Positions 2,171-40,156 of a stretch of DNA of 40,207 bases are shown one piece after another. The position numbers and the translations under genes were made by a program. Numbering within the stretch: position 1 is the stretch's first letter; every line of letters begins with the position of its first letter. The stretch lies in IMG/VR virus record IMGVR_UViG_3300008267_000318, positions 1 to 40,207 of that record, one strand, 5' to 3'. The stretch is from a virus. The notes beneath the pieces are model-generated. The model was not told the DNA's origin, searched no databases, and saw only the letters and a program-made list of their open reading frames with translations.

Positions 2171-2515
2171 ATGGATAAAGATAGTATATTGTTCGATGAC
2201 AAGTCCTTTAGCGATCTGTTACGGGACGTTTACCAAAATACAAAAAAGAAAGAAAGTCAGATCAATGGCTTGATTGACCAATTAAAGATGCTGGTTAAGA
2301 ATGTAACCGATGCATCAATGATGGTACCTCTAATCAAGGAATATCTTGAAATCTCAGTAAAGAATGACGATAATCTAGTAAGATTGACGGCTATCATCCA
2401 ACGCTTACTAGTAACTGGCAGCAAAGAAACCAAAGAAGGTGAGTTAGGTCTCACCGATCAAGAGAGAGCGCAGCTACTATCAGAAGCACAAGAAATTTTA
2501 GATAAGTCTAAATGA
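2171..2515 (+). CDS. Small helical protein preceding the spike genes
   Basis: This 114-aa, almost wholly helical protein has no cysteine, membrane segment or recognisable motif. The middle (DQLKMLVKNV ... VPLIKEYLEISVKNDDNLVRL) looks like a two-helix coiled bundle. Its TGA overlaps the start of the first spike paralogue (ATGAG), so it is co-translated with baseplate genes. A chaperone or minor tail-assembly role would fit the position but is only inference. The ATG at 2171 is preceded by a TATTTAT element. Confidence 0.75.
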   Translation: MDKDSILFDDKSFSDLLRDVYQNTKKKESQINGLIDQLKMLVKNVTDASMMVPLIKEYLEISVKNDDNLVRLTAIIQRLLVTGSKETKEGELGLTDQERAQLLSEAQEILDKSK

Positions 2516-3504
2516 GTAGCTTATCAACAGGACTAAGTGAATTTATACAAGGTGGCTCACCACAACAACAGCCTCCTGGATTTTCTACACGATTATTTAC
2601 AGCGCACGTGCTAGAAGTCGTAAAAGACGAAACCTCACCTTACTATGACTCTGCAATAGGACCAGCCTGCATAGGATCCTTAAAGATTAAAATTGTAGAG
2701 ACGCAATATAATAAATTTGAGGACAAGAGTTTTTATAGAGCTTATCCGTTGGATAGAGGCGACTACTCACTGCCATTACCTGGTGAGTCTGTAGTCTGTA
2801 CCATAGCTCAAGGAAACTATGTAGGAGGAGCTGGTGGATCTTATACAGACCTTATATACTACATATGTACGGTATCCATGGATCAACAGCTTACCATTAA
2901 CACAGCTCCATTTCTTAGCTCAGACGCCTTCCACATTGATAGCAATTTAGGTTCTATTTTCAAACAATTAGCAATAGACACAGCTGTTTTCGCAAAAAGA
3001 TTTGATGGACGTATTGACTTTGAAGGAAGTGTGTTTAAGCGAAATATAGGAACAACAAAGACAACATTAGGAGATACTGTATTAGAAGGACGTTTTGGTA
3101 GTCTAATAAAGATGACTAGCAACTCTAAAGATAGATGGAGCGATAATCAAATTTCCAACATAAAAGCAGGCTTACCTACAGACCCATTGATCATTATGAA
3201 GGCTACTCGCAGATACGCTGTAGAGCGAGAGCTTGATCAGTTCTCATCGACTGCAATTGACGACGATCCCAACAACGACGACTCAAGCGTATACGTCACA
3301 ACAACGCAAAACATACCAGCAATGTTAAGCTGCTCAGAAAAGCTGTCTTCTTGGAACTACGATCAAGACTTGGAGACTACTAAGGGAGAATCGGATGAAG
3401 CGTCTGTTAATTTACAAACTATATTTGGCGGAGGATTTGATTCTAACGCAAAGATTCAATTGAACCTAGTAGGTACCGTCGCAATCAAAAAACAAGGTAC
3501 CTAA
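2512..3504 (+). CDS. Baseplate hub/spike paralogue 1 (gp5-like core only)
   Basis: A 330-aa protein beginning MSSLSTGLSEF. Residues about 28-120 look like the OB-fold of gp5/VgrG-type spike proteins: a strand with VLEVV, then AYPLDRGDYSLPLPGESVVC, equivalent to the 'P..GE.V.V' pattern. A conserved middle motif LEGRFGSLIKMT and a late motif YVTTTQNIPAMLSCS follow. The protein ends soon after LQTIFGGGFD, where its two paralogues carry extra C-terminal domains. This is therefore the bare-core version of a three-gene family. It should sit in the central baseplate hub. It starts by ATGA overlap and is followed by the next paralogue after 11 bases. Confidence 0.8.
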   Translation: MSSLSTGLSEFIQGGSPQQQPPGFSTRLFTAHVLEVVKDETSPYYDSAIGPACIGSLKIKIVETQYNKFEDKSFYRAYPLDRGDYSLPLPGESVVCTIAQGNYVGGAGGSYTDLIYYICTVSMDQQLTINTAPFLSSDAFHIDSNLGSIFKQLAIDTAVFAKRFDGRIDFEGSVFKRNIGTTKTTLGDTVLEGRFGSLIKMTSNSKDRWSDNQISNIKAGLPTDPLIIMKATRRYAVERELDQFSSTAIDDDPNNDDSSVYVTTTQNIPAMLSCSEKLSSWNYDQDLETTKGESDEASVNLQTIFGGGFDSNAKIQLNLVGTVAIKKQGT

Positions 3505-3515
3505 TAATTATAGCC

Positions 3516-5027
3516 ATGAGTTCATTAAGTAAGGGCCTATCAGAGTTCATAACACCATCGATACAATCGCCAGAGCAGCAACTGCGAAGAAATACAATAT
3601 TTCCAGCGTACGTTGTGGAAGTGGTATTAGATGATACCTCTAACTATTACAATGGACCAGAAAGTATTGGCTCTGTGAGATTCAAGCAATTGCCAAACGA
3701 CTTCACAAAAAGCGAAGATGTAACAAATAAGATAGCGTATCCTATCGATCGTGCAAACTTTGTACAACCATTAGCAGGAGAGCAAGTATTATGCGTATTG
3801 TTGTTCAGTGAACAAGGTGAAGCTCGTTACTACTATTTATCGACCGTTAGTACAGAACAAACAGCAGCTGCAGTAATATCGCCATTTCTTGGCACGAGCT
3901 TCACTACATTAAAAGAGGCTGGATATCCAACACCACAAATAGCTGAAAAACGATTTGATGACATAAACGGTTATACAATCGATGCATTAAAGGCTAGAGT
4001 GTCTCAAGAAAAGTTAAGAGAGGGAGATAAGGTATTGGAGGGTAAATTTGGTGGAGTGATAAAATTTACACATACCATAAACAAAACCGGAGTCTGGGAT
4101 TCTGAAGACCAAATTACAAATCTAACAAAAACAACAACTGATGGTGATCCAATGTTGATTGTTAAAAGCGCATTAAGATCAAAGAAGTTTGAGTTTGAGG
4201 ATGATGATATAAATGTGGATGAGTCTAGCATGTATGTTACTACGACGCAAACAGTGCCGTTGGTAGTGAGTTGTGCACGACTAAAGAGCTTTGAGGTAGA
4301 ACCAGAAGCAGCCATATTAAGCGCTCTAAACGACGAAGACTATGCAAGTTTGCAAAGTCTGTTTGGTGGAGGATTTGATCCAAACGGTGTCAAAATAAAA
4401 CCAGATAAGATAAATCTAACAGGAACACCGCAAATTAAAGTAGTACCAGGTGCTCTAAATCCAACTGGAGATGAAGGTGCTAGTGTTGGAGAACTTGGAG
4501 ACATAACACGAGGTACATTGATAGAATCAAATCCAACTGGACCTTGGACAATCTCAAATGGAGTAAATAATAACGTAACATCTGCTTATCAATTAAGATG
4601 GCACCACAACGACGAAACAAACCCAGATCCAGATCCAAACCAAGTGTACAAAAGCTGGTCAAGAACTGGTGGAGGAGGTTATGTGTACGATATGGTACTA
4701 TATCGAAATGAAAACGGACAAGTGACAAAAAGACCATGGATACCATCACCAATAACTGGCACTGTGAGTTTTGCAGGCTTATATTCTAATAAACTAGATA
4801 GCGCAATACATATAAAAGCTAGTAATGGGGCTGAGTATGTGATGCTTCATATGGATAATTTTTTAGTAAAGGTAGGAAGTACTGTAACACGAGGACAGCT
4901 TATAGCTAGACAGAGCGATCGAATGTCGTCAAACTACACAAGCCGAAACGTTCACTTACACATACAATTTCCAGATAAGAATGTGTTAATAAACTACATT
5001 GCGAGTCTGGCAAGCAATACTTGGTAA
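3516..5027 (+). CDS. Baseplate hub/spike paralogue 2 with C-terminal M23-like peptidase domain
   Basis: A 503-aa protein. Residues 1-~300 repeat the paralogue core (MSSLSKGLSEF; AYPIDRANFVQPLAGEQVLCV; LEGKFGGVIKFTH; YVTTTQTVPLVVSCA; SLFGGGFDPN). Residues ~380-495 resemble an M23/LytM endopeptidase fold: PSPITGTVSFAG, a YVMLHMDN strand (H445, equivalent to the 'YaHL' His), VKVGSTVTRGQLIA, and a C-terminal HLH motif (H480, H482). In M23 enzymes the zinc is held by HxxxD plus the second His of HxH. Here D392 is present but the position four before it is Gly388, so one metal ligand may be missing. The domain may be a modified or inactive wall-binding version. A linker of ~80 residues separates the two halves. 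Confidence 0.8.
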   Translation: MSSLSKGLSEFITPSIQSPEQQLRRNTIFPAYVVEVVLDDTSNYYNGPESIGSVRFKQLPNDFTKSEDVTNKIAYPIDRANFVQPLAGEQVLCVLLFSEQGEARYYYLSTVSTEQTAAAVISPFLGTSFTTLKEAGYPTPQIAEKRFDDINGYTIDALKARVSQEKLREGDKVLEGKFGGVIKFTHTINKTGVWDSEDQITNLTKTTTDGDPMLIVKSALRSKKFEFEDDDINVDESSMYVTTTQTVPLVVSCARLKSFEVEPEAAILSALNDEDYASLQSLFGGGFDPNGVKIKPDKINLTGTPQIKVVPGALNPTGDEGASVGELGDITRGTLIESNPTGPWTISNGVNNNVTSAYQLRWHHNDETNPDPDPNQVYKSWSRTGGGGYVYDMVLYRNENGQVTKRPWIPSPITGTVSFAGLYSNKLDSAIHIKASNGAEYVMLHMDNFLVKVGSTVTRGQLIARQSDRMSSNYTSRNVHLHIQFPDKNVLINYIASLASNTW

Positions 5028-5029
5028 AA

Positions 5030-6718
5030 ATGAGTAGCTTAAACAAAGGATTAGGAGAGTTTTTTACGGGTCTTTATGACTTTAATAGTGCTAGAAACGA
5101 AGTATCGCATCGTTGGTTCTTTGCGCATGTGTTAGATGTAATTGAAGATGAGTTTAGTATTTGGTACGATGGACCTGATAGCATAGGAGCGGTTCGTGCA
5201 AGAATACTAATGATTGGATATAATAAGTATGAAGATGAGCAAGACACAATATGCTATCCATTAGATCGTTCTTACCTAAGAGTACCCTTCCCAGGTGAGC
5301 AGATTATGGGAGTAATAAGCTTTGGTCCTGCTGTAGAAGGTCGGTACTTAGCAAGATATTACTATTGGAAGGTGGTTACACCGGATCAAAATATAACATA
5401 TAGTGAACAGCCGTTTACTGGAACGGATCCGTATCATATCAAACCAGGACTCAGACTTACAGTTGATGTTAACGCAGAAGCTAAGCGCTTTGAGAATAAG
5501 CTACCATACGATAAGCAACTGTTAGTGGATAAATCAGTTAATCAAAAAACGAGACAAGGAGAGAGAACTATTGAAAGTCGTTTTGGTGCAATGATAAAGT
5601 TTACAAGCACGCCAGATACGGATACAATATGGGATGCATCGCAAATAAACAACCAAGTAGCATCTAGTATTGGGGATCCTTTGGTTGTGATAGGTGCAAA
5701 TCCTAAGACATCCACAACCAAAGAGCTGATAACTCGAGACTTGCAAGTTGATGTTGGTAGTAATTTATTCTTTGCAACAACGCAAAACTTACCAATAAAA
5801 ATTGGATGCTCAAAAAAACTATATAGCTTCAATCCCGATTTAAGGTTAGGAGAACTATCAGAAGCTACTAGCAATGAGGTGAGTTTGCAGACTATCTTTG
5901 GAGGAGGATTCGATCCAAATCAGCAACTAGCAATCAAACTGCAAGGTACAATAACCTTACCTGGAGGAGGAGGTTCCACAACACCAGTAGATGGCATAAA
6001 CCAAGAGCAGAGCAATAACATTAAATTAGCAAACGACACTCTTAAAAAGGCAGGGTACAACACTTGGCAAACGCGAGTTGCAATGTTATGCGTATGTGGA
6101 AAGGAGAGTGGATTGGTACCAAAGAGCGAGTACAGCTATGAGGATACGGGAGTAAAAGGACTTAGGCATTTGTTTGGTAAGTATTTGAAAAAATACGATA
6201 ACGACGATCAAGGGCTGTTAGAGATACGCAAAAACGATATAGAGTTCTACGACATCATCTACGGATATAAAACAACCCCAGCACGTTCTGGTAACCCACC
6301 AAATGGAGGAAACGATCAACCCGGTGACGGATTTAAGTATCGTGGTCGTGGCTTTAATCAAATCACTTTTAAGAGAGCGTACAAGGGTTTGCAAGACTAC
6401 GCAAAGACTATAGGTATAGACGTTGACTTAATCAACGACCCAGACAGACTCAATGAACCTGAAATAGCTGCAGTAGGATTGGCAAACACTATGAATAATT
6501 GGATGTACAAGGCTGATAGGTATAAGCAGTACTCTGGCGAAAATGTCTCGCCTAAAGATGGTACAAACTTAGATGTACTAATACATTGGTACGCTAACGC
6601 CAATGCTGGAATGGGAAATGATTGGACATCTGGAGTTGTAACAGAGGCGTATAATAACGCAAAAGCTTGGGAGAACGTACTTACAAACTTCTTCAATGCC
6701 AATCCAGGACTTATGTAG
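5030..6718 (+). CDS. Baseplate hub/spike paralogue 3 with C-terminal GH19-like lysozyme/chitinase domain
   Basis: The ATG at 5030 is chosen over an in-frame TTG at 5021 because it gives MSSLNKGLGEF, matching both paralogues. The 562-aa product has the shared core to about residue 305 (YPLDRSYLRVPFPGEQIMGV; ESRFGAMIKFTS; TIFGGGFDPN), a Gly-rich linker (PGGGGSTT), then a GH19-like glycoside hydrolase domain (~325-560). Supporting motifs are CGKESGLVPKSEY, whose Glu (about 359) is the expected general acid, and GDGFKYRGRGFNQITF, the family's 'GDG.rYRGRG..QlT' signature. GH19 enzymes cleave chitin or peptidoglycan glycan strands. As in T4 gp5, fusion to the spike would open the cell wall at injection, but with a different lysozyme family from T4's GH24. 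Confidence 0.88.
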   Translation: MSSLNKGLGEFFTGLYDFNSARNEVSHRWFFAHVLDVIEDEFSIWYDGPDSIGAVRARILMIGYNKYEDEQDTICYPLDRSYLRVPFPGEQIMGVISFGPAVEGRYLARYYYWKVVTPDQNITYSEQPFTGTDPYHIKPGLRLTVDVNAEAKRFENKLPYDKQLLVDKSVNQKTRQGERTIESRFGAMIKFTSTPDTDTIWDASQINNQVASSIGDPLVVIGANPKTSTTKELITRDLQVDVGSNLFFATTQNLPIKIGCSKKLYSFNPDLRLGELSEATSNEVSLQTIFGGGFDPNQQLAIKLQGTITLPGGGGSTTPVDGINQEQSNNIKLANDTLKKAGYNTWQTRVAMLCVCGKESGLVPKSEYSYEDTGVKGLRHLFGKYLKKYDNDDQGLLEIRKNDIEFYDIIYGYKTTPARSGNPPNGGNDQPGDGFKYRGRGFNQITFKRAYKGLQDYAKTIGIDVDLINDPDRLNEPEIAAVGLANTMNNWMYKADRYKQYSGENVSPKDGTNLDVLIHWYANANAGMGNDWTSGVVTEAYNNAKAWENVLTNFFNANPGLM

Positions 6719-29945: not shown

Positions 29946-30869
29946 ATGGACATAAACCAAGCTCAACTTAAACAATTAGTAGATAGTCATTTAGGCGTAG
30001 GTACTCCTGGTAATAAAGGAGAGACTGCATACTATTGTCCATTTTGCAACCATCACAAGAAGAAGTTGCAAGTAAACTTTGTATTGGAGAAATTTCACTG
30101 CTGGGTTTGCAACACAAAGGGAAATAGCATAGCTTCGTTAATGAAGAAGAGCAATGCTGCAAAGCACTACATTCAGAAAGCTATTGAGTTAGGAACTCGT
30201 AAATTTAAATCAAACCAAGCAGAGGCGCAGACAGCGCAACTAACACTACCGGAAGAATATATCCCACTTTGGAAAGCAAGTCCTAACAGTCCTCACTTTA
30301 AGAATGCACTTCACTACCTTATGAATGAAAGAGGTCTTACCAAGTACGACATTCTCAAGTATCAGATAGGCTATTGTGAGAGTGGTGAGTATAGTGGAAT
30401 GATTATTATTCCAAGCTATGACGAGCATGGAGTGCTAAACTTCTTTACTGGAAGAAGCTACTATGTGGACGCAGGACGCAGACACAACAACCCAGACGTA
30501 TCCAAAGATGTTATTGGATTTGAAAACCTAATAGACTGGTCACAACCAATTACAATAGTAGAAGGTGCATTTGACGCAATCTCAACCAAACGAAACGCAA
30601 TTCCGTTGTTTGGTAAGATGATTTTGACTAAGTTGCAAATAAAAATTATAGAACAAAAGGTAAAGCGAATTAACATAGCACTCGATCCAGATGCCCTACC
30701 AAAGGCAGTTGAAGCGATTGAGTCGTTCATCAACAACGGAGTGGATGTTCGCTTAGTAAAATTAGAAAAGGATCCTAATGATACAGGATTCGTCAACATG
30801 AGACCAAAGGTAGATGAGGCAAGTGCAATTGACTTGTTTGACTTAATCTCACTAAAAATGGCAATATGA
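29946..30869 (+). CDS. gp61: DnaG-type primase with zinc finger and Toprim domain (gp61-like)
   Basis: The ATG at 29946 gives 307 aa; an upstream TTG at 29928 would add six residues and is less likely. Residues ~31-55 hold a zinc ribbon: CPFC (C31, C34) and CWVC (C52, C55). The Toprim part contains the catalytic-type Glu206 in IVEGAFDA and the acidic DPDA motif (D247). A middle segment (GMIIIPSYDEHGVLNFFTGR) matches the RNA-polymerase fold of DnaG primases. T4 gp61 is 342 aa and works with the gp41 helicase, which is not in this window. It makes RNA primers for lagging-strand DNA. The stop overlaps the following gene start (ATATGA). Confidence 0.9.
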   Translation: MDINQAQLKQLVDSHLGVGTPGNKGETAYYCPFCNHHKKKLQVNFVLEKFHCWVCNTKGNSIASLMKKSNAAKHYIQKAIELGTRKFKSNQAEAQTAQLTLPEEYIPLWKASPNSPHFKNALHYLMNERGLTKYDILKYQIGYCESGEYSGMIIIPSYDEHGVLNFFTGRSYYVDAGRRHNNPDVSKDVIGFENLIDWSQPITIVEGAFDAISTKRNAIPLFGKMILTKLQIKIIEQKVKRINIALDPDALPKAVEAIESFINNGVDVRLVKLEKDPNDTGFVNMRPKVDEASAIDLFDLISLKMAI

Positions 30870-33800
30870 TCAATAAAGTTAAGACAAATCTAAAGAGAGT
30901 TGATAAGATTCTCCACATTGCTGATGTTCACATTAGAAACTGGAAGAGGCATAAGGAATACAAGCTTGTGTTTGATAAACTGTTTGAGGCAGCAAAGCAA
31001 CTTCCTGAGGATGCTATCATTACGATAGGTGGTGATATTGTGCATGCTAAGACGGATATGAGTCCTGAGTTGATTCACATGGTTTCCTACCTATTTAACA
31101 GCTTAGCAGACATTAGACCTACAATAGTCATTTGTGGTAATCACGATACGAACCTAAACAATAACAATCGATTGGATGCTCTAACACCTATTATTGAAGC
31201 ACATAACCATCCAAATTTGTTCTATTTAAGAGATAGTGGTGCCCATAAGATTGGTAACGTAATTGTAAACGTAATGTCGTTGTTGGACGATCCAAAGGAG
31301 TATAAAACAGCTGATACGTTAATAGGAAAGGCTGATACTCTGATTGCTATGTACCACGGAACTATCGCAAATAGTAAGGTGGATAGTGGATTAAACATTG
31401 CACACGGATTAGATTGGGACACCTTTGCAGGACACGACATAGTATTGCTTGGAGATATTCACAAGAGACAAATCCTTAGCCAAGCAGACCCGCTAATGTT
31501 TTACCCTGGAAGTACCGTTCAGCAGAATTTTGGCGAGTCTTATGAAGGTCATGGATACGCAATAGTAGACGTTCCAACAAGAACAGTTGAGCACTTCGAT
31601 ATACCAAACGATTACGGATACTTCACTTTAGAAATAAGAAACGGAGTAGTACCTGACAACCTATCGATAACATCCAAGACTAGTGTAAGAGCCAAAGTTT
31701 ACGAGACATCACCAGCTCAACTTAAAAAGGCATTAGCTGAGATAAGAAAGCGATATAAGAATGGTGAGGTGCTTGTAACTAATATGGATAAGACACAAGC
31801 TCAGAGTAGCTTGAATATTGACGACACGTTACATGGCTTGGATGTAAGGAACGTAGACTACCAAACAACGCTACTAAAAGAGTACTTGGATCAGTTTCAT
31901 TTAGAGGAGGAGCTAACGGATAAAATTATCAACATCAACAAAGGGTTCAACTCAGCAGTAGTGTCTGGTGAGTTAGTACGCAACGTTGTATGGACTCCTA
32001 AAAAGTTTGAGTTTGACAATATGTTCTCGTATGGAGAGGGCAATGTTATGGAGTTTGGTAACTTGAATGGTATATGCGGATTGTTTGCACCTAACCATGC
32101 TGGAAAGTCTGCAACTCTCGACGCCTTGTGCTTCTGCTTGTTCGATCACTCATTCAGAGCAAGCAAAGCTGAGCAGGTACTAAATAGAAAAAAGGATAGC
32201 TTTTGGTGTCGTTTTAACTTCGAATTAAACGGATTAGACTACGTTATCGAGAAAAGAGCGGCAAGGTACCAAAAGGGTCCATTGGCTGGAAAATTACGCG
32301 TTGATATCGATTTCTGGTACACTGATCATGAAGGTCAGAAACACTCACTAAACGGAGAACAGAGAAAGGATACGAATAGAATTATTCAATCTTATGTTGG
32401 ATCGTTTGATGACTTTATCTTAACAGCTTTATCGCTGCAAGGAAACAATAGCAGCTTCATTGAGAAGACTCAAGGTGAGCGTAAGGATTTGCTTGCAAAC
32501 TTCCTTGACCTTAAAATCTTTGATAATTTATACGAGCTAGCTAACAAAGAGACGCGTACAACATCAGTCTTATTAGAAGAGTATGAGAAGCAAGACTTTG
32601 AGCAATCTTTAGGAGATGCACAGAGGTCATTGGAAACTAACCAAGAATTGTACGATGATAAATTTGCTGAGTATGAGAGAGTTCAAGAGATGGTTCAAGA
32701 CCTAAATGAAGAGATCATCAGACTATCAGAGCAAATCAAACCAACTGAGGCAGATGGACTAGATTTAGCAAACCTACAAAGCCAACATGAGCTTTTGAAG
32801 AAAGAGGTAGAATCAAAGCTAACTGACTTGCAGACAGTTGAAACTAAAATTAGCGAAGTAAAAATAGAGATTGCAAAACTTGAAGCTGAGTTTGAGTTAG
32901 ATAAATTAAAGAATTTGGAAGAACATGAGTACGATCCAAATTGTAAGTACTGTGTAGAGAACGTCTTTGTAAAAGATGCGATCAAGACAAAGCAAGAGTT
33001 AGAAGAGGATAAGAAGCAAGTTGCTGAGTTTCTGAATGTAAGAAAGAAGACAGAGGAGTGGATTGAGAAATACAAAGACATCGTAGAGCAGTATAAGTAC
33101 TATGATGGAATCGCAGCTGAGAAGCAAAGATTGACGAATGGGTTAAGTGTTCTAGACTCTAAACGAGAGTCAGTAGAGAGCCAGATTCAAACCTATAAAA
33201 CTAAGTTAGAGCGGGTAGAATCGAGTATCAAGACCTACAACGACAACTTAGCTACAATTAAGGCAAACGAAGCTTTAAACGAGTCTATAAAGGTTTTACG
33301 TCAAGAGGCTTTGAGCACTAAGACTCAAGCAGAAACTCTCAATAAAGAAGCGCAAAACTTCCATGGAAAGATCAAAGTTAGTGAAAAGGTCATTAGCGAG
33401 TGTGAGAAGAGCATCAAGCACATGCAAGAGCTATCAGACAAGCAGATTGCCTACGATTACTACTTGAAGGCAATGGGACGTGATGGCATTCCATACTCGT
33501 TAATTAGCAAGGCTATTCCATATATTCAAGCGTACGTGAACAACATACTATCACAAGTTACAGACTTCACAGTTGAGATTGAAACTGACGGTAAGAACAT
33601 TAACGTACACATTTGCTACGATGACAACAAGTGGCCATTAGAACTAGCTTCTGGCATGGAAAGATTTGTAAGTTCGCTTGCTATCCGTGTTGCGTTGATT
33701 AAGATTACAAACCTACCTAAGCCAAACTTTATTGCGATTGATGAGGGGTTGGGAGTGTTAGACAGCACCAATCTCAACTCAATGCATATGTTCTTCAATT

Positions 33801-33919
33801 ACTTGAAAGACACGTTTAAATTCGGTCTAATTATTAGCCACATTGACGTAGTACGTGATATGGTAGATACAATCATAACAATCGATAGAAAGGATGATTT
33901 GAGCTATATTAAATGCTAA
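30866..33919 (+). CDS. gp47-gp46: Mre11-Rad50-type (gp47-gp46) fusion recombination nuclease/ATPase
   Basis: One 1017-aa frame carries both subunits that T4 encodes separately. Residues ~10-235 are the Mre11/gp47 phosphoesterase: D20-V-H22, GGD (D57), GNHD (N92-H93-D94) and GDIHKRQ. Residues ~380-1015 are the Rad50/gp46 ABC ATPase: Walker A APNHAGKS (~406-413), long coiled-coil arms (~530-870) with a zinc hook CKYC (C693, C696), an ABC signature ASGMER (~928-933) and Walker B FIAIDEG (D959, E960). The complex resects DNA ends for recombination-dependent replication. In the Walker A loop the usual first Gly is Ala. The ATG overlaps the primase stop. The N-terminal order is 47 then 46. Confidence 0.94.
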   Translation: MINKVKTNLKRVDKILHIADVHIRNWKRHKEYKLVFDKLFEAAKQLPEDAIITIGGDIVHAKTDMSPELIHMVSYLFNSLADIRPTIVICGNHDTNLNNNNRLDALTPIIEAHNHPNLFYLRDSGAHKIGNVIVNVMSLLDDPKEYKTADTLIGKADTLIAMYHGTIANSKVDSGLNIAHGLDWDTFAGHDIVLLGDIHKRQILSQADPLMFYPGSTVQQNFGESYEGHGYAIVDVPTRTVEHFDIPNDYGYFTLEIRNGVVPDNLSITSKTSVRAKVYETSPAQLKKALAEIRKRYKNGEVLVTNMDKTQAQSSLNIDDTLHGLDVRNVDYQTTLLKEYLDQFHLEEELTDKIININKGFNSAVVSGELVRNVVWTPKKFEFDNMFSYGEGNVMEFGNLNGICGLFAPNHAGKSATLDALCFCLFDHSFRASKAEQVLNRKKDSFWCRFNFELNGLDYVIEKRAARYQKGPLAGKLRVDIDFWYTDHEGQKHSLNGEQRKDTNRIIQSYVGSFDDFILTALSLQGNNSSFIEKTQGERKDLLANFLDLKIFDNLYELANKETRTTSVLLEEYEKQDFEQSLGDAQRSLETNQELYDDKFAEYERVQEMVQDLNEEIIRLSEQIKPTEADGLDLANLQSQHELLKKEVESKLTDLQTVETKISEVKIEIAKLEAEFELDKLKNLEEHEYDPNCKYCVENVFVKDAIKTKQELEEDKKQVAEFLNVRKKTEEWIEKYKDIVEQYKYYDGIAAEKQRLTNGLSVLDSKRESVESQIQTYKTKLERVESSIKTYNDNLATIKANEALNESIKVLRQEALSTKTQAETLNKEAQNFHGKIKVSEKVISECEKSIKHMQELSDKQIAYDYYLKAMGRDGIPYSLISKAIPYIQAYVNNILSQVTDFTVEIETDGKNINVHICYDDNKWPLELASGMERFVSSLAIRVALIKITNLPKPNFIAIDEGLGVLDSTNLNSMHMFFNYLKDTFKFGLIISHIDVVRDMVDTIITIDRKDDLSYIKC

Positions 33920-36900: not shown

Positions 36901-37120
36901 TTACGATGAGTACGATATCAACGTTATCCAATATGGAACACCAGCCCAATTGGTTTTTGAGCCTAGTGGAGATGGAGGAGCTTATTTTGGTACTTTAATT
37001 GACGACGTCCAGTTTTGTAAAATTGGATCAACTACCGATCCTAATTTCATTAAACCAACCAGTCTAGCAAATATATATGCAGTGAGCTCTAATAGTTCGA
37101 ATAACGTACCGCAGAGATAA
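33947..37120 (+). CDS. Large beta-rich virion protein, tail-fibre/baseplate candidate
   Basis: A 1057-aa protein rich in Thr, Ser, Asn and Tyr with alternating strand patterns throughout, as in fibre or baseplate-periphery proteins. The N-terminus (MIIKHQPFLKRNFISYDYAV) looks like an attachment segment. About 20-140 is a beta-sandwich (YFKVTYLPSTIGGG, TEIEILDAAGNPV), and several carbohydrate-binding-like beta modules follow, e.g. around VKFKLKRDPSS ... YLMVYIFDAYKDF (~900-960) and a C-terminal GGAYFGTLIDDVQFCKIGS. No catalytic motif was recognised. The stop overlaps the next start (TAATG). Assignment as a structural protein is from composition and context; the position in the virion is unknown. 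Confidence 0.7.
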   Translation: MIIKHQPFLKRNFISYDYAVVDTTATSDNYFKVTYLPSTIGGGKSLIKFQGNGQNLELNSQTEIEILDAAGNPVKTDITTYIDRFNNYYVTISVYDNTAPGVGTVCFVGKATRDLKNRPIQSNNTNELGYNVVWTASINIQPTERNNSPLVFNEPPSVDLAQVITPLRINNSQITSQQFAIVTCSIATITTSNFKGFDQKAANSKNILSSRLQSIQINPNQQSTTTNTVNTDTKSSHPDIIGGYAVNEVNEYNTVITTTTPFFSSSYVGGYLEFFNQRYTLSPQTQSNTTIANTNPYNTLTNTAPTVQDQLNYWKSTIVKVDDSRTAYLDTPVAINTTTTNGTRTSTNTHTYKSVSRFTASLYYTPSSEVYVTSSAISQSYLQFTFNELDPIAGDVYKVRLFYKRSSVNQDWTIINDQIITAPEYLTDARYPNQTSYARRVSDYLLQGHFTSQQIVNNNWSLYNETLTGFDTATASYDSTTLIDSIKLETKNDPSGYYRLLTTKYYQNYAEEQAFTIDFNCTLGPYTELELYASSDALSTTLISTDYQSRAYNKSKNNDKTRFSENYTRFGKYIGKVVNNSQNTVHYGRVAFDFESDREGLGRPLFRCKPVSTVTGSAWIAQVGVKPIKYNGFTPQIVQFAIPTPSDYSSLLSESVDYKIEYFNYTGEQSEFVTYLNNIPLNLVGTVPTNGCQAESRVFTFTPTYYASASATIPNALIAIKATSQITQSVSTSTRFYAAFTNGAVGTLGSYAGQFAEETPVDGWNCAIPYIYMSSSTVGAPGNYVYISASISNTDQIVYRNAAGRVTSSWRWFDTFTKDFTTGPGLSTALSTWGYLTSSTSVVDNAYFTTHSSVGIRRSEASQSYADYVNATTNTQRTVALKRRRLVYPTGGSLTSSLFTENGGIYNVKFKLKRDPSSTTTYTPQSGSYLMVYIFDAYKDFTEATRGKSGWYPPDRNIVKIGHAYTSGSVTTPALTWLDSATGQYYDEYDINVIQYGTPAQLVFEPSGDGGAYFGTLIDDVQFCKIGSTTDPNFIKPTSLANIYAVSSNSSNNVPQR

Positions 37121-37638
37121 TGATACCAAGCAGACATACCAAAAATGTTGTTTTTAGTGCACCAATACTGAACCTACTAGTAGACAATCCTCATATGGAG
37201 AAAGTGAGGATCAAGTCAATATACCAACAATGGCAAGGTGAAAACATGCAAGAGGTTAGGAGTAAGGACGTAGAGAATCCGTATACGCTACACATAGGAA
37301 CGCCAAACACCGATGAGCAAATGCAACAAGATCGAGTGTTTTTTATCCAAAGCTACTTATCATATAACCCTATTACAAAGACCGTAGAAAAGAGGCAACT
37401 AATTCCATATAGAAACGTTGAAAAGGTGTTTATAGGCAAGCAACGTATTGATGAGCATACATATGGCGATTACGCTTCGTTTATCAATGGTAACATTGTA
37501 GCTAACGATTTAATTTTACTAGACACAAAGCAATCCATAAGGCAGTTGGTTGAAGAGTTGAGTAAAAAAGTGCAATTATTAGAAGGAGAGGTACGCCAAC
37601 TACGCTCTCAAACACAAACACAGCCTATTTATAGGTAA
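37120..37638 (+). CDS. Small protein with C-terminal coiled coil, fibre-associated candidate
   Basis: A 172-aa protein whose last third is ANDLILLDTKQSIRQLVEEL, then SKKVQLLEGEVRQLRSQ, a heptad coiled coil. The 'GNIVANDLILLDTKQSI..LV.EL..KV..LE' pattern resembles the ends of trimeric fibre proteins that terminate in a chaperone-like coil. The N-terminal ~100 residues are mixed and contain SIYQQWQGENM and IPYRNVEKVFIGKQRID. TAATG overlaps at both ends couple it to the large upstream structural gene and to the nucleotidyltransferase gene. A fibre or fibre-assembly role is inferred; no family is recognised with certainty. Confidence 0.7.
   Translation: MIPSRHTKNVVFSAPILNLLVDNPHMEKVRIKSIYQQWQGENMQEVRSKDVENPYTLHIGTPNTDEQMQQDRVFFIQSYLSYNPITKTVEKRQLIPYRNVEKVFIGKQRIDEHTYGDYASFINGNIVANDLILLDTKQSIRQLVEELSKKVQLLEGEVRQLRSQTQTQPIYR
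37625..37632 (+). promoter_or_regulatory. Candidate late promoter element (CTATTTAT)
   Basis: CTATTTAT (then A) lies in the final codons of the 172-aa gene, 5 bases before the ATG at 37638. It has the same 5-base spacing as the 20682 and 27901 elements. It overlaps coding sequence (Pro-Ile-Tyr-Arg), so coincidence is possible. Confidence 0.4.
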
Positions 37639-39848
37639 TGAGCTCTTTATCTAATTTAATAGTAGAATCCTTATTAAAGGAGTTGGAGGAACAGGCAATT
37701 GTTTTGTTCCCTGGTGGATTTAAGCCACCACATGGTGGACATTACGAATTAGCCCTTCGTTACAGCGAACAACCTAATGTAAATCAAGTTATCGTTCTAA
37801 TAGGACCAGAGCCTAGAGAAGGTATAACAAGAGATCAGAGTATTGCCATTTGGAGAGAGTTGACGAAAGGCAACAATAAAATCTTAATCCAGAAAACAGA
37901 AGTTAATAGCCCACTAGCAGCTGCATACAAATATATCGAAACAGCTAAACCTGGAAGCTACGCTCTTGCAGCAAGCTCAAAAGGCGACGACTACAAAAGA
38001 GTACAGCAATTTGTAGCTGGACATCAACCAGGATCAAAGTATGCAAGAGAGGGAGTCAGTGTTGTGGAGTTACCACTTGACACTAAGCCGTTAAATTATC
38101 AAAACAGATCACAGAAGGCAGAAAAATACACTCCAGGGAAAAGCGAAAACGGAAAAGGAATTAGTGCAAGTGTACTTAGAGTTGATTTGAAAAACAACGA
38201 TAAAGAAGCTTTTGCTACAAACTACCCAAACGTATCAGACAAAAACACAATTGATAAGATTTTTGGCATTTTAAAAAAAACAACCGTTTCTGAGGAGATA
38301 GCGCCAAGTGATTTGCTTTCTAGAATAAAAGCGAGATTCAAAGATTTTATCCAAAAAGTAAACCAAGAGAAGGAAGAAACTAAAGAAGCTTTTGGCTTAA
38401 TAGTTCAGGCAGCACAAGACAAGAGAAAGCTTACACCAGAGGAGCAAAAGCAAGTTGGTGAGCAAATGAGAGATGTCCTCAAGACAATGGGATTGGGAGT
38501 TGCAGCTGCACTACCAGGAGGAACAATCTACTTTTTGATTATCAAGTTATTAAAACTAGAAAAATACACAATGCCATCATCGTTTATTACAGAAAAAGTA
38601 AATCTCAACGAAGGAGGAGGAGCAGGACACTTGGCTCATCCATATGAGGACTTAGACCTCACATTTAGAGATATTAAAGATATGATAAAGGCTGCTCTGT
38701 CGGGCAAGTTAGAATATGCACAAGAGAAGTTAGACGGTCAAAACCTATTAGTTACCTACAAGGATGGCAAGGTTAGAGCTGCAAGAAACAAAACAGAGCT
38801 CAAAGATTACGGCCAGCAAAGTAAGACATTAGACCAAGTAGCTGAGAAGTTTGCAGGTAGAGGTCCAATACAGACAGCCTTTGTTGAAACTATGCGCGAC
38901 TTAGAGACCGCAATTAACAAACTAACTCCTGAGCAGAAGGAACAGTTCTTTGAAAACGGAAAAAAGTTTATCAACTTAGAGGTACTTTTCCCAGAAACAC
39001 AAAACGTAATTCCTTACGGAGCAGCATTATTGAGAATGCATCATTTTATCGAGTACGATGAGAAGGGAGCTGCTCAAAACACAGACATTGTTGGTGTTGA
39101 GCAGTTGCAAAGGGCATTTGAAATAATCCAAGCAACAAACCAAAAAACATTTAGAGTAGGAGTAACAAACCCAGCAACAATAAAGCAGGATGCAGACTAC
39201 GCTAATCAAGAAAAGGAGTTTCTTGCAATGGCAGATGCCGTTAAGCAAAAGTATAACTTAGGAGATGAGACGCCTGTAAAAGATTACGTTAAGAAGTGGT
39301 GGACAGATTTTGTAAAAGGCAAAGCAAACGACTACAAATACGAAATACCTGAAGAGGTGCTAGACCTGATCGTGAGAAGATGGGCCTTCACTGACAAATC
39401 AACAGCACTACCAGCAATCAAAGGAATGATCGACAACGACCAGTTTAAATCTTGGTTTGAGCAGTATGACAGATCGAGTGAAGTTGAAAGCAACAAGAAA
39501 GCTGTATTAGAGCCAATAGAGAGGTTGTTTCTTAAGTTAGGAGTTCGTATATTAAAGAATATCGAAAACCTAACAACAGTAAACCCAGACGAAGCAACTA
39601 AAAAAATTAGAAAAGATGTTGAGGATGCGATAATGAACATTAAGCAGGCATCAGCAAACGATACTATAGCAGATAGTGATGCTGCTATGAAGTTTTTAAA
39701 ACGCCAATTGCTTAGATTGAAAGACATTGGCGGCTTTAAAGCAATTGTTCCGACAGAGGGTGTAGTATTTAAGTATAAGGGCAAGCTGTACAAGCTTACA
39801 GGAGCCTTTGCACCTATTAACCAAATTTTAGGCTATTTAAGATTCTAA
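37638..39848 (+). CDS. Multidomain HxGH nucleotidylyltransferase / LETM1-like / ligase-like nucleotidyltransferase
   Basis: A 736-aa protein with three readable parts. (1) Residues ~18-215: a HIGH-superfamily nucleotidylyltransferase (NMNAT/cytidylyltransferase type) with FPGGFKPPHGGH (H32, H35) and ISASVLR (~175-181), equivalent to the ISSTxxR motif. (2) About 225-318: ETKEAFGLI ... KLTPEEQKQVGEQ, then MRDVLKTMGLGVAAALPGG and a hydrophobic helix before MPSSF, resembling bacterial LETM1-like proteins and possibly membrane-associated. (3) About 324-736: a covalent nucleotidyltransferase-like domain with EKLDGQN (motif I Lys364), AARNK, NLEVLFP (E448, motif III-like), TEGVVFK (E707, motif IV) and KLYKLTG (motif V-like). 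The third part resembles ATP-dependent DNA/RNA ligases. The substrate is unknown; NAD metabolism, RNA repair or end modification are possibilities. Confidence 0.78.
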   Translation: MSSLSNLIVESLLKELEEQAIVLFPGGFKPPHGGHYELALRYSEQPNVNQVIVLIGPEPREGITRDQSIAIWRELTKGNNKILIQKTEVNSPLAAAYKYIETAKPGSYALAASSKGDDYKRVQQFVAGHQPGSKYAREGVSVVELPLDTKPLNYQNRSQKAEKYTPGKSENGKGISASVLRVDLKNNDKEAFATNYPNVSDKNTIDKIFGILKKTTVSEEIAPSDLLSRIKARFKDFIQKVNQEKEETKEAFGLIVQAAQDKRKLTPEEQKQVGEQMRDVLKTMGLGVAAALPGGTIYFLIIKLLKLEKYTMPSSFITEKVNLNEGGGAGHLAHPYEDLDLTFRDIKDMIKAALSGKLEYAQEKLDGQNLLVTYKDGKVRAARNKTELKDYGQQSKTLDQVAEKFAGRGPIQTAFVETMRDLETAINKLTPEQKEQFFENGKKFINLEVLFPETQNVIPYGAALLRMHHFIEYDEKGAAQNTDIVGVEQLQRAFEIIQATNQKTFRVGVTNPATIKQDADYANQEKEFLAMADAVKQKYNLGDETPVKDYVKKWWTDFVKGKANDYKYEIPEEVLDLIVRRWAFTDKSTALPAIKGMIDNDQFKSWFEQYDRSSEVESNKKAVLEPIERLFLKLGVRILKNIENLTTVNPDEATKKIRKDVEDAIMNIKQASANDTIADSDAAMKFLKRQLLRLKDIGGFKAIVPTEGVVFKYKGKLYKLTGAFAPINQILGYLRF

Positions 39849-39850
39849 AC

Positions 39851-40156
39851 ATGAAATTAAAAACATTAGTCCCTTTAAGGGAAAAGAAGGAAGCAATCGC
39901 TTCATCACCTGCAACTAATATGACGTTGCATTTCGATAAGGGATTCGAAAACGTAGGTGAAGAAGGCACACCAGAAGCTCACTTTTCAATCAGCATTAGT
40001 AGCGTTGGTGGAAAAGAATTCTTTCGTGGAGTGGGCGATAGTGCTGAAGCTGATAAAATTAACGAAGGTGTCAAGTTGGAGTTGCGCAGAGCTTTGCGTA
40101 AGTTTGATAAGCATGTTCAATACATTCTAGATAAATACAAGTTTCAATCAAGATGA
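39851..40156 (+). CDS. Small uncharacterised protein
   Basis: A 101-aa protein two bases downstream of the 736-aa enzyme. Residues ~23-60 form beta strands (NMTLHFDKGFENVG, AHFSISISSVGG) and the C-terminal ~35 residues a basic helix (VKLELRRALRKFDKHVQYIL). It has no membrane segment, cysteine or recognised motif. Its TGA overlaps the next start (ATGAG). Tight coupling suggests it is expressed with the nucleotidyltransferase, but no functional link is shown. Confidence 0.72.
   Translation: MKLKTLVPLREKKEAIASSPATNMTLHFDKGFENVGEEGTPEAHFSISISSVGGKEFFRGVGDSAEADKINEGVKLELRRALRKFDKHVQYILDKYKFQSR

Follow-up and report, generated by a model that had tools for sequence, protein, structure and literature searches.

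The question raised by one gene of IMG/VR virus record IMGVR_UViG_3300008267_000318 is what a phage does with a single chain that joins an HxGH nucleotidylyltransferase, a hydrophobic segment and a ligase-like domain. The record was analysed over its whole length of 40,207 nucleotides, called the window here, and is a fragment of a T4-like myovirus, a lake phage, in which a PHROG search identified baseplate wedge proteins, an endonuclease, a primase and an SbcC-like protein. The gene is an intact open reading frame (ORF) of 736 amino acids with an ATG start and is the sole copy within the 40 kb record. An initial annotation, made from the sequence alone, viewed the three parts as one enzyme and guessed at a role in RNA-end modification or repair. 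The guess has gained from the kinase, CCA-adding, HD and HAD modules found in relatives, but the three parts are probably separately released cargo and not one working enzyme, because the chain has a tag and predicted prohead-protease sites at the module borders. What that annotation missed is that the protein is a member of a modular family with a capsid-targeting-like tag and predicted prohead-protease sites between its modules. The reading that we hold with moderate confidence is that the gene product is a virion-packaged polyprotein, cut by the prohead protease, which delivers RNA/tRNA-repair enzymes as head cargo of a T4-like phage. Packaging and cutting of the polyprotein are likely; RNA repair as its role, which depends on predicted activities, could equally well hold or fail.

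A modular family with a shared tag and protease-type sites

Full-length relatives of the protein occur in IMG/VR at 53-78% identity, and in a profile search with the C-terminal domain at least some 580 viral stretches, a lower bound, were found to encode it. On these matches the ligase-like domain is a large, almost unannotated ligase-fold family. The C-terminal half was found in three phage records, those of Microcystis phage Mel-JY01 and two uncultured huge phages, and Mel-JY01 was the sole annotated isolate found with the family. Its protein (WWT39297.1) reads IIAE/GG at the border ahead of the ligase-like domain, and its prohead protease is WWT39309.1. A cellular origin was rejected, since the six loci with the C-terminal domain in the genome collection are all on metagenome-assembled contigs, probably phage contamination.

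The architecture was read in 54 dereplicated proteins of 421-2463 amino acids. The C-terminal domain is constant in these, the first 15 residues form a recognisable tag and the modules in between are exchangeable; the ligase-like domain is C-terminal in every family protein read. HxGH modules occur in 52 of the 54 (L003 is tag and ligase-like domain only, and L074 has no HxGH domain), P-loop kinase modules (AAA_33/zeta-like) in 13, CCA-adding enzyme modules in three (Pfam E 2e-31; phmmer to 6ibp E 1e-32), HD modules in two and a ParB-like module in one. A HAD module (DFDDTL..LTAR..DD) is present in L009 and L029, relatives from the clade of the window protein. The best solved relatives of the kinase profile were seryl-tRNA(Sec) kinase (E=0.0013) and then chains labelled metallophosphoesterase (E=0.04), which we take to be the kinase domain of Clostridium Pnkp. 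The kinase, CCA-adding, HD, HAD and ligase-like modules are such as one would expect where cut RNA, and tRNA in particular, is to be healed, completed and sealed.

The tag has the family consensus M-N-K-L-[TS]-x-[WY]-L-V-[EK]-x-[LI]-[LI]-x-E (typical start MNKLTEWLVE..). A gp21-type site was present in 89% of family N-termini; in control ORFs the figure was 37% and in shuffled sequences 36%. Counts by region were made with the T4 gp21-type pattern [LI]xE[AGSN], cut after E (the position is marked by a slash below). Within the first 30 residues of the family proteins the pattern was observed 41 times against 6.3 in shuffled sequences, and in the linkers 134 times against 41.7 expected from shuffles, while inside the enzyme domains it was observed 8 times against 60.9 expected. 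Control patterns (reversed, LxD and LxK) gave ratios near 1, and the other ORFs of the window held 24 sites against 22.4 expected. Among 15 representatives below 60% identity, the corresponding counts were 14/1.9 at the N-terminus, 44/11.2 in linkers and 5/20.4 in domains. The window protein has exactly two strict sites, one at residue 10 after the tag and the other at residue 325 on the border of the two enzymes. A site stands immediately before the kinase module in 10 of its 13 proteins, and stand-alone kinases start with one (MIPFILKE/GLYDPG in phage HTVC008M and MKTFAELQE/GVYDPN in Melnitz); in these two phages the linker site has become the N-terminus.

The gene neighbourhood was read in the relatives, because the window ends right after the gene 3' of the 736-residue ORF and the head genes are therefore missing from it. 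A gp21-type prohead protease (PF03420) was identified in 15 of 18 contigs tested and also in Mel-JY01 and both huge phages. In all 16 contigs with a computed distance the protease gene shares the strand of the polyprotein gene and follows it 5.7-11.0 kb downstream, and terminase, portal, scaffold and capsid genes belong to the same gene run. Neighbouring proteins of the head cluster start with MKLxxLIPLRE/, MKLQPILE/G and similar sequences, and the N-terminal region of the capsid protein also holds sites.

These results bear on the alternative that the protein is a multi-enzyme chain for nucleic-acid repair or capping of the ordinary kind, synthesised inside the infected cell and left unpackaged, in which the [LI]xE sites are mere surface linkers. 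We consider it quite unlikely. In its favour, the counterparts of the family in cyanophages are found close to the replication genes uvsX and gp41 and away from the head cluster; but it would not account for sites that are enriched in the tag and linkers and depleted in domains while the controls stay flat, for sites kept when modules stand alone, or for a constant tag and a gene that keeps its place 5.7-11 kb ahead of the prohead protease gene.

Several further arrangements of these modules were seen. One chain of 2463 amino acids (L162:1896-9284) holds kinase, CCA-adding, HD, HxGH and ligase-like modules and four uncharacterised segments, and protease-type sites separate these parts. A module of about 135 residues (DDGPxxYYxGFxDY.., L162:5682-6086) recurs in 25 relatives, so that about half of the proteins carry it, and gave a weak match to the RNA-binding family RAP (E 7e-4). 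In L014:3006-4538 the HxGH domain is followed by a Pol-beta-like nucleotidyltransferase motif (GSAGKKSISGDIDLA) in place of the ligase-like domain, with no Pfam match. Agrobacterium phage Atu_ph07 gp053 (L165:5236-7572) has the same kinase inside another multidomain protein, with VTE/GVN before it. The C-terminus of HTVC008M gp130 was considered as a ligase domain and rejected, as no ligase motifs were seen. In Mel-JY01, a gene for ribosomal protein S21 (L001:22183-22410) lies in the head cluster between the prohead protease and capsid genes.

Ligase-like, HxGH and helical domains

A PDB sequence search with the whole 736-residue protein gave no match, and a PDB profile search with the C-terminal domain gave chance-level matches only, so a fold search was needed for this domain. 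The model, built with 64 relatives, reached an AlphaFold pLDDT (predicted local distance difference test) of 93.2 and a pTM (predicted template modelling score) of 0.87. All 50 best matches listed by VIA-align were RNA or DNA ligases, headed by a Naegleria RNA ligase (Z 9.1, root-mean-square deviation (rmsd) 4.0, 183 residues). Foldseek against PDB also placed RNA and DNA ligases first, as weak matches (none at E 0.001 or better). Residues E39, K40, D42, G43, R59, E124, E383, G384, K395 and T397 of the domain are invariant in the 64 aligned relatives. Adding 324 gives the numbering of the whole protein, in which the invariant positions include K364, R383 (motif Ia-like), E448, E707, G708 and K719, the first motif V lysine. 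By fold and by motifs I, III and IV, residues 326-736 are placed in the covalent lysine nucleotidyltransferase (ligase/capping) superfamily, with a predicted activity. The initial annotation had staked this assignment on a nucleotidyltransferase fold and on the retention of K364, E448 and E707; the fold is that of ligases and the three residues are invariant. In a profile search against RNA ligase families, which it had proposed, Pfam PF09414 (RNA_ligase) aligned with motif I alone, and its 16.2 bits fell below the curated cut-off of 27.

The conservation of this domain also bears on a structural or scaffold role, in which a degenerate C-terminal ligase fold would anchor variable cargo, the effectors, in the capsid core. 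This is the least probable of the alternatives considered here. The domain is constant in chains with variable modules, has lost the second motif V lysine and has no C-terminal substrate domain, all of which would suit an anchor. However, the lysine of motif I, the arginine of Ia, the glutamates of III and IV and the first lysine of V are invariant in the 64 sequences, unlike in a degenerate enzyme, and the protease site separates the ligase fold from its cargo.

The N-terminal part was modelled at pLDDT 79. Residues 18-215 matched PPAT 5h16 (VIA-align Z 14.4, rmsd 2.9, 156 amino acids), and the profile of the domain matched PPAT 3nd5 (E=4.6e-5). Features of the HxGH superfamily are present, namely a Rossmann-like fold, HGGH and ISASVLR, in which Ser replaces Thr at the ISxT position. 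The fusion of an HxGH nucleotidylyltransferase to a ligase-like lysine nucleotidyltransferase, as first proposed, is thus borne out by the PPAT fold and by the ligases that fill the list of C-terminal matches. The ORF and the motif strings on which the proposal was built (HGGH, ISASVLR, KLTPEEQ/LPGG/MPSSF, EKLDGQN, NLEVLFP, TEGVVFK and KLYKLTG) were found in place and go beyond chance, and residues of HGGH, ISASVLR and the C-terminal motifs are conserved in relatives.

It is unlikely that this HxGH domain is the main effector of a packaged restorer of cofactors, which would refill nicotinamide adenine dinucleotide (NAD) or coenzyme A (CoA) early against NAD-depleting defences, with the ligase-like domain in that pathway or accessory to it. 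The HxGH domain of marine relatives does match archaeal NMNAT 1f9a (E=5e-6), HxGH modules are in nearly all of the proteins (52/54), NMNAT-like proteins occur in cyanophage virions (PMC9602691) and counter-defence through phage NAD synthesis has been described (PMC7824862). On the other side, the constant part of the family is the ligase-like domain and not HxGH, as L003 and L074 illustrate, the CCA-adding, kinase and HD modules do not suit NAD synthesis, and the HxGH domain of the window protein is nearer to PPAT than to NMNAT.

The middle segment had been taken for LETM1-like. This identity was rejected, since a search of 12 records with Pfam PF07766 (LETM1_RBD) gave nothing at E<=1. Helices are predicted at 223-311, followed by disorder at 312-324, and the junction before the ligase-like domain is predicted to be disordered in both the N- and the C-terminal models. 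Among relatives the helical segment is variable, and a HAD domain may take its place or be attached to it. The models describe it as a distinct hydrophobic helical module.

Proposed packaging, cutting and RNA repair

In T4, gp21 cuts after L/I-x-E and the internal proteins enter the head via N-terminal targeting sequences of 10-19 residues (PMC9026906); T4 Alt is cut at ITE-6 and LTE-619 (PMC5694885). A packaged polyprotein of repair enzymes would work as follows. The protein would be synthesised late, and its N-terminal tag of 10-15 residues would take it into the prohead core in the fashion of T4 internal proteins, as its N-terminus and gene position suggest. A gp21-type prohead protease would cut after E10 and E325, to judge by the site statistics. 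This would remove the tag and leave two fragments, the HxGH adenylyltransferase and the helical tail behind it (11-325) and a free ligase-fold domain (326-736). Both fragments would remain with the DNA in the capsid and enter the host at infection. The C-terminal domain, as its fold and conserved residues suggest, would then form a Lys364-nucleotide intermediate and act on RNA ends, and the HxGH domain would make or restore an adenylylated cofactor of the NAD or CoA type. In relatives, the PNK/PSTK-like kinase, CCA-adding, HD and HAD modules would amount to a tRNA/RNA repair kit made in advance, with which to counter host anticodon nucleases and other defences of that sort. Mass spectrometry of cyanophage virions has detected distant HxGH/NMNAT-like proteins (PMC9602691, PMC10665884), and since these are distant relatives they support packaging in the window family by analogy.

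Several points weigh against this mechanism. First, what was detected in cyanophage virions are distant HxGH proteins, in S-CREM2 by 3 peptides only, and the linkage to the protease was seen in relatives only. Secondly, the junction E is replaced by Met or Cys (LLLM/GG, LLLC/GG) in 17 of the 54 proteins, a marine subclade, some of which have another site nearby, and xE[AGSN] is to some degree depleted in domains as a general matter, as [AKTS]xE shows (17 against 37). Third, the second lysine of the motif V KxK is an invariant Thr, T721, in the 64 sequences, and the ligase-like domain ends the chain, with neither an OB nor an RNA-binding domain behind it. Lastly, the only enzymes of the window protein are HxGH and ligase-like, with no kinase, CCA or phosphatase module.

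A tRNA-cutting nuclease stops translation, and hence the making of any repair enzyme that has still to be synthesised; phage tRNA repair is an early-expressed function (T4 Pnkp/Rnl1). If the proposed mechanism holds, virion-borne repair enzymes would bypass this stop, and the repair kit of the relatives could undo bacterial suicide defences. Known phage RNA repair uses separately expressed enzymes, T4 Pnkp and Rnl1 (PMC7824862). We put forward tentatively, with a little less than even confidence, that widespread environmental T4-like phages load their heads with a polyprotein which the prohead protease dices into separate RNA-repair enzymes (a 5'-kinase, a CCA-adding enzyme, HD/HAD phosphohydrolases, a member of a new family with the RNA-ligase fold and an NMNAT/PPAT-like enzyme), and that the injected kit defeats anticodon-nuclease defences before phage expression. 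The site rule (sites lie in the tag and mark the borders of modules but are depleted within them) would be of general use for spotting head cargo in uncultured T4-like phages and dividing it into its parts, and it predicts exact fragment ends that can be checked by mass spectrometry.

Table 1. Features of the 736-residue protein gene and its neighbours in the window.
Feature	Position	Strand	Basis
Modular protein, 736 residues: tag, HxGH adenylyltransferase, helical segment, ligase-like domain	37638..39848	+	ORF, homologues, architecture
N-terminal tag MSSLSNLIVE/SLLKE, capsid-targeting-like, residues 1-15; gp21-type site IVE/S after residue 10	37638..37682	+	Family consensus, site statistics, predicted helix 3-17
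HxGH adenylyltransferase domain, residues 18-215, PPAT/NMNAT fold	37689..38282	+	Profile and fold match
HGGH motif, residues 32-35	37731..37742	+	Alignment of relatives; H35 invariant
ISASVLR motif, residues 175-181, in position of NMNAT-type ISxTxxR	38160..38180	+	S176, A177, S178, L180, R181 invariant
Hydrophobic helical segment, residues 219-322; variable module	38292..38603	+	Predicted helices 223-311 and disorder 312-324
Predicted prohead-protease site LNE/GG, residues 323-325, module junction; expected cut after base 38612	38604..38612	+	Strict [LI]xE[AGSN] match
Ligase-like covalent nucleotidyltransferase domain, residues 326-736	38613..39845	+	AlphaFold model and fold searches
Motif I EKLDGQN, residues 363-369; predicted nucleotidyl-lysine K364, codon 38727-38729	38724..38744	+	K, D, G invariant, 64 sequences
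ARNK, motif-Ia-like, residues 382-385	38781..38792	+	A, R, K invariant
Motif III NLEVLFP, residues 446-452, E448	38973..38993	+	E invariant
Motif IV TEGVVFK, residues 706-712, E707	39753..39773	+	E and G invariant
Motif V region KLYKLTG, residues 716-722	39783..39803	+	K719 invariant; second lysine of KxK is invariant T721
Neighbour of 101 residues, start MKLKTLVPLRE/KKEA..	39851..40156	+	Adjoins gene in L016 and L019 as well
Upstream neighbour of 172 residues, one-base overlap with the 736-residue gene	37120..37638	+	Adjacency conserved in relatives

The 101-residue neighbour is a probable further head protein, as its N-terminus is of the same kind as those of other head-cluster proteins. Elsewhere in the window, an ORF of 1017 amino acids (30866-33919) matches a metallophosphoesterase/exonuclease at about 6-203 and an SbcC-like subunit at 279-1015, and is apparently a fused Mre11-Rad50 (gp47-gp46) protein. 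Three consecutive ORFs (2512-3504, 3516-5027 and 5030-6718) have the common N-terminus MSSL(S/N)xGL(S/G)EF, possibly a tag that tail enzymes share for targeting or anchoring; two of the three match peptidase or endolysin families.

Comparison with known systems

Among cyanophages, the 'cytidyltransferase' PHROG 395 and PHROG 455 resemble the window family in that an HxGH protein adjoins, or is fused to, a KWDG protein, and the cyanophage HxGH proteins start like capsid-targeting sequences (MKKFSAFLNE/A, MKLFNQFFKE/A). Unlike in the window family, the two are usually separate genes near replication genes and have the opposite domain order if fused. A direct profile link of the window ligase-like domain to PHROG 455 was too weak (hhalign prob 1.6), so the two are connected by BFVD fold matches only, among which are the PHROG 455 carriers S-PM2 and metaG-MbCM1. 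PHROG 455 itself (L166:4800-5774, L163:4224-5456, L167:1346-3532), of cyanophages and pelagiphages, has motifs like those of a covalent nucleotidyltransferase (VKWDGAPA, EGFVTV..VKLVDR) and matched 471 phage records.

The ligase-like domain shares its fold, motifs I, Ia, III and IV and the first Lys of motif V with the covalent RNA ligases Rnl5 (NgrRnl), Rnl1, Trl1 and Rnl2. It differs from all four in a helical insert of about 220 residues between the motif III strands and motif IV, in the invariant Thr for the second Lys of motif V, in having no C-terminal domain and in a similarity below family thresholds. The combination of kinase, phosphohydrolase-type and ligase modules is like that of bacterial Pnkp, T4 Pnkp-Rnl1 and fungal Trl1, but the window family also has a capsid tag, protease sites where its modules join, and further modules of the CCA-adding and HxGH types.

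The closest parallels in delivery are of two kinds. First, the T4 internal head proteins (Alt, IPI-IPIII) also have a short N-terminal propeptide ending in L/I-x-E, a head gene neighbourhood and a gp21-type protease; Alt is also cut near its C-terminus and is an enzyme delivered with the DNA, as the window family may be. While each T4 internal protein carries one effector, a chain of the window family has up to five enzyme modules with sites between them, its enzymes are other than those of T4, and it would be packaged as one. Secondly, polyvalent proteins (Iyer et al. 2017, PMC5512222) are likewise multidomain, with interchangeable unrelated enzyme modules, a place in the phage late region and a proposed injection. 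The emphasis of that work is on release by peptidases embedded in the chain and on modules of the ART, MPTase and ParB types, and its text makes no mention of CCA-adding, polynucleotide kinase or adenylyltransferase modules (PMC5512222). A peptidase-family match was found in 1 of 53 scanned proteins of the window family (Zn_protease, L136), which in contrast to polyvalent proteins would use the sites of the capsid's own prohead protease. The window family would thus work in the manner of T4 internal proteins and is akin in concept to the polyvalent proteins, from which it differs in its predicted capsid-protease sites in place of an embedded peptidase and in a repertoire of the RNA-repair type.

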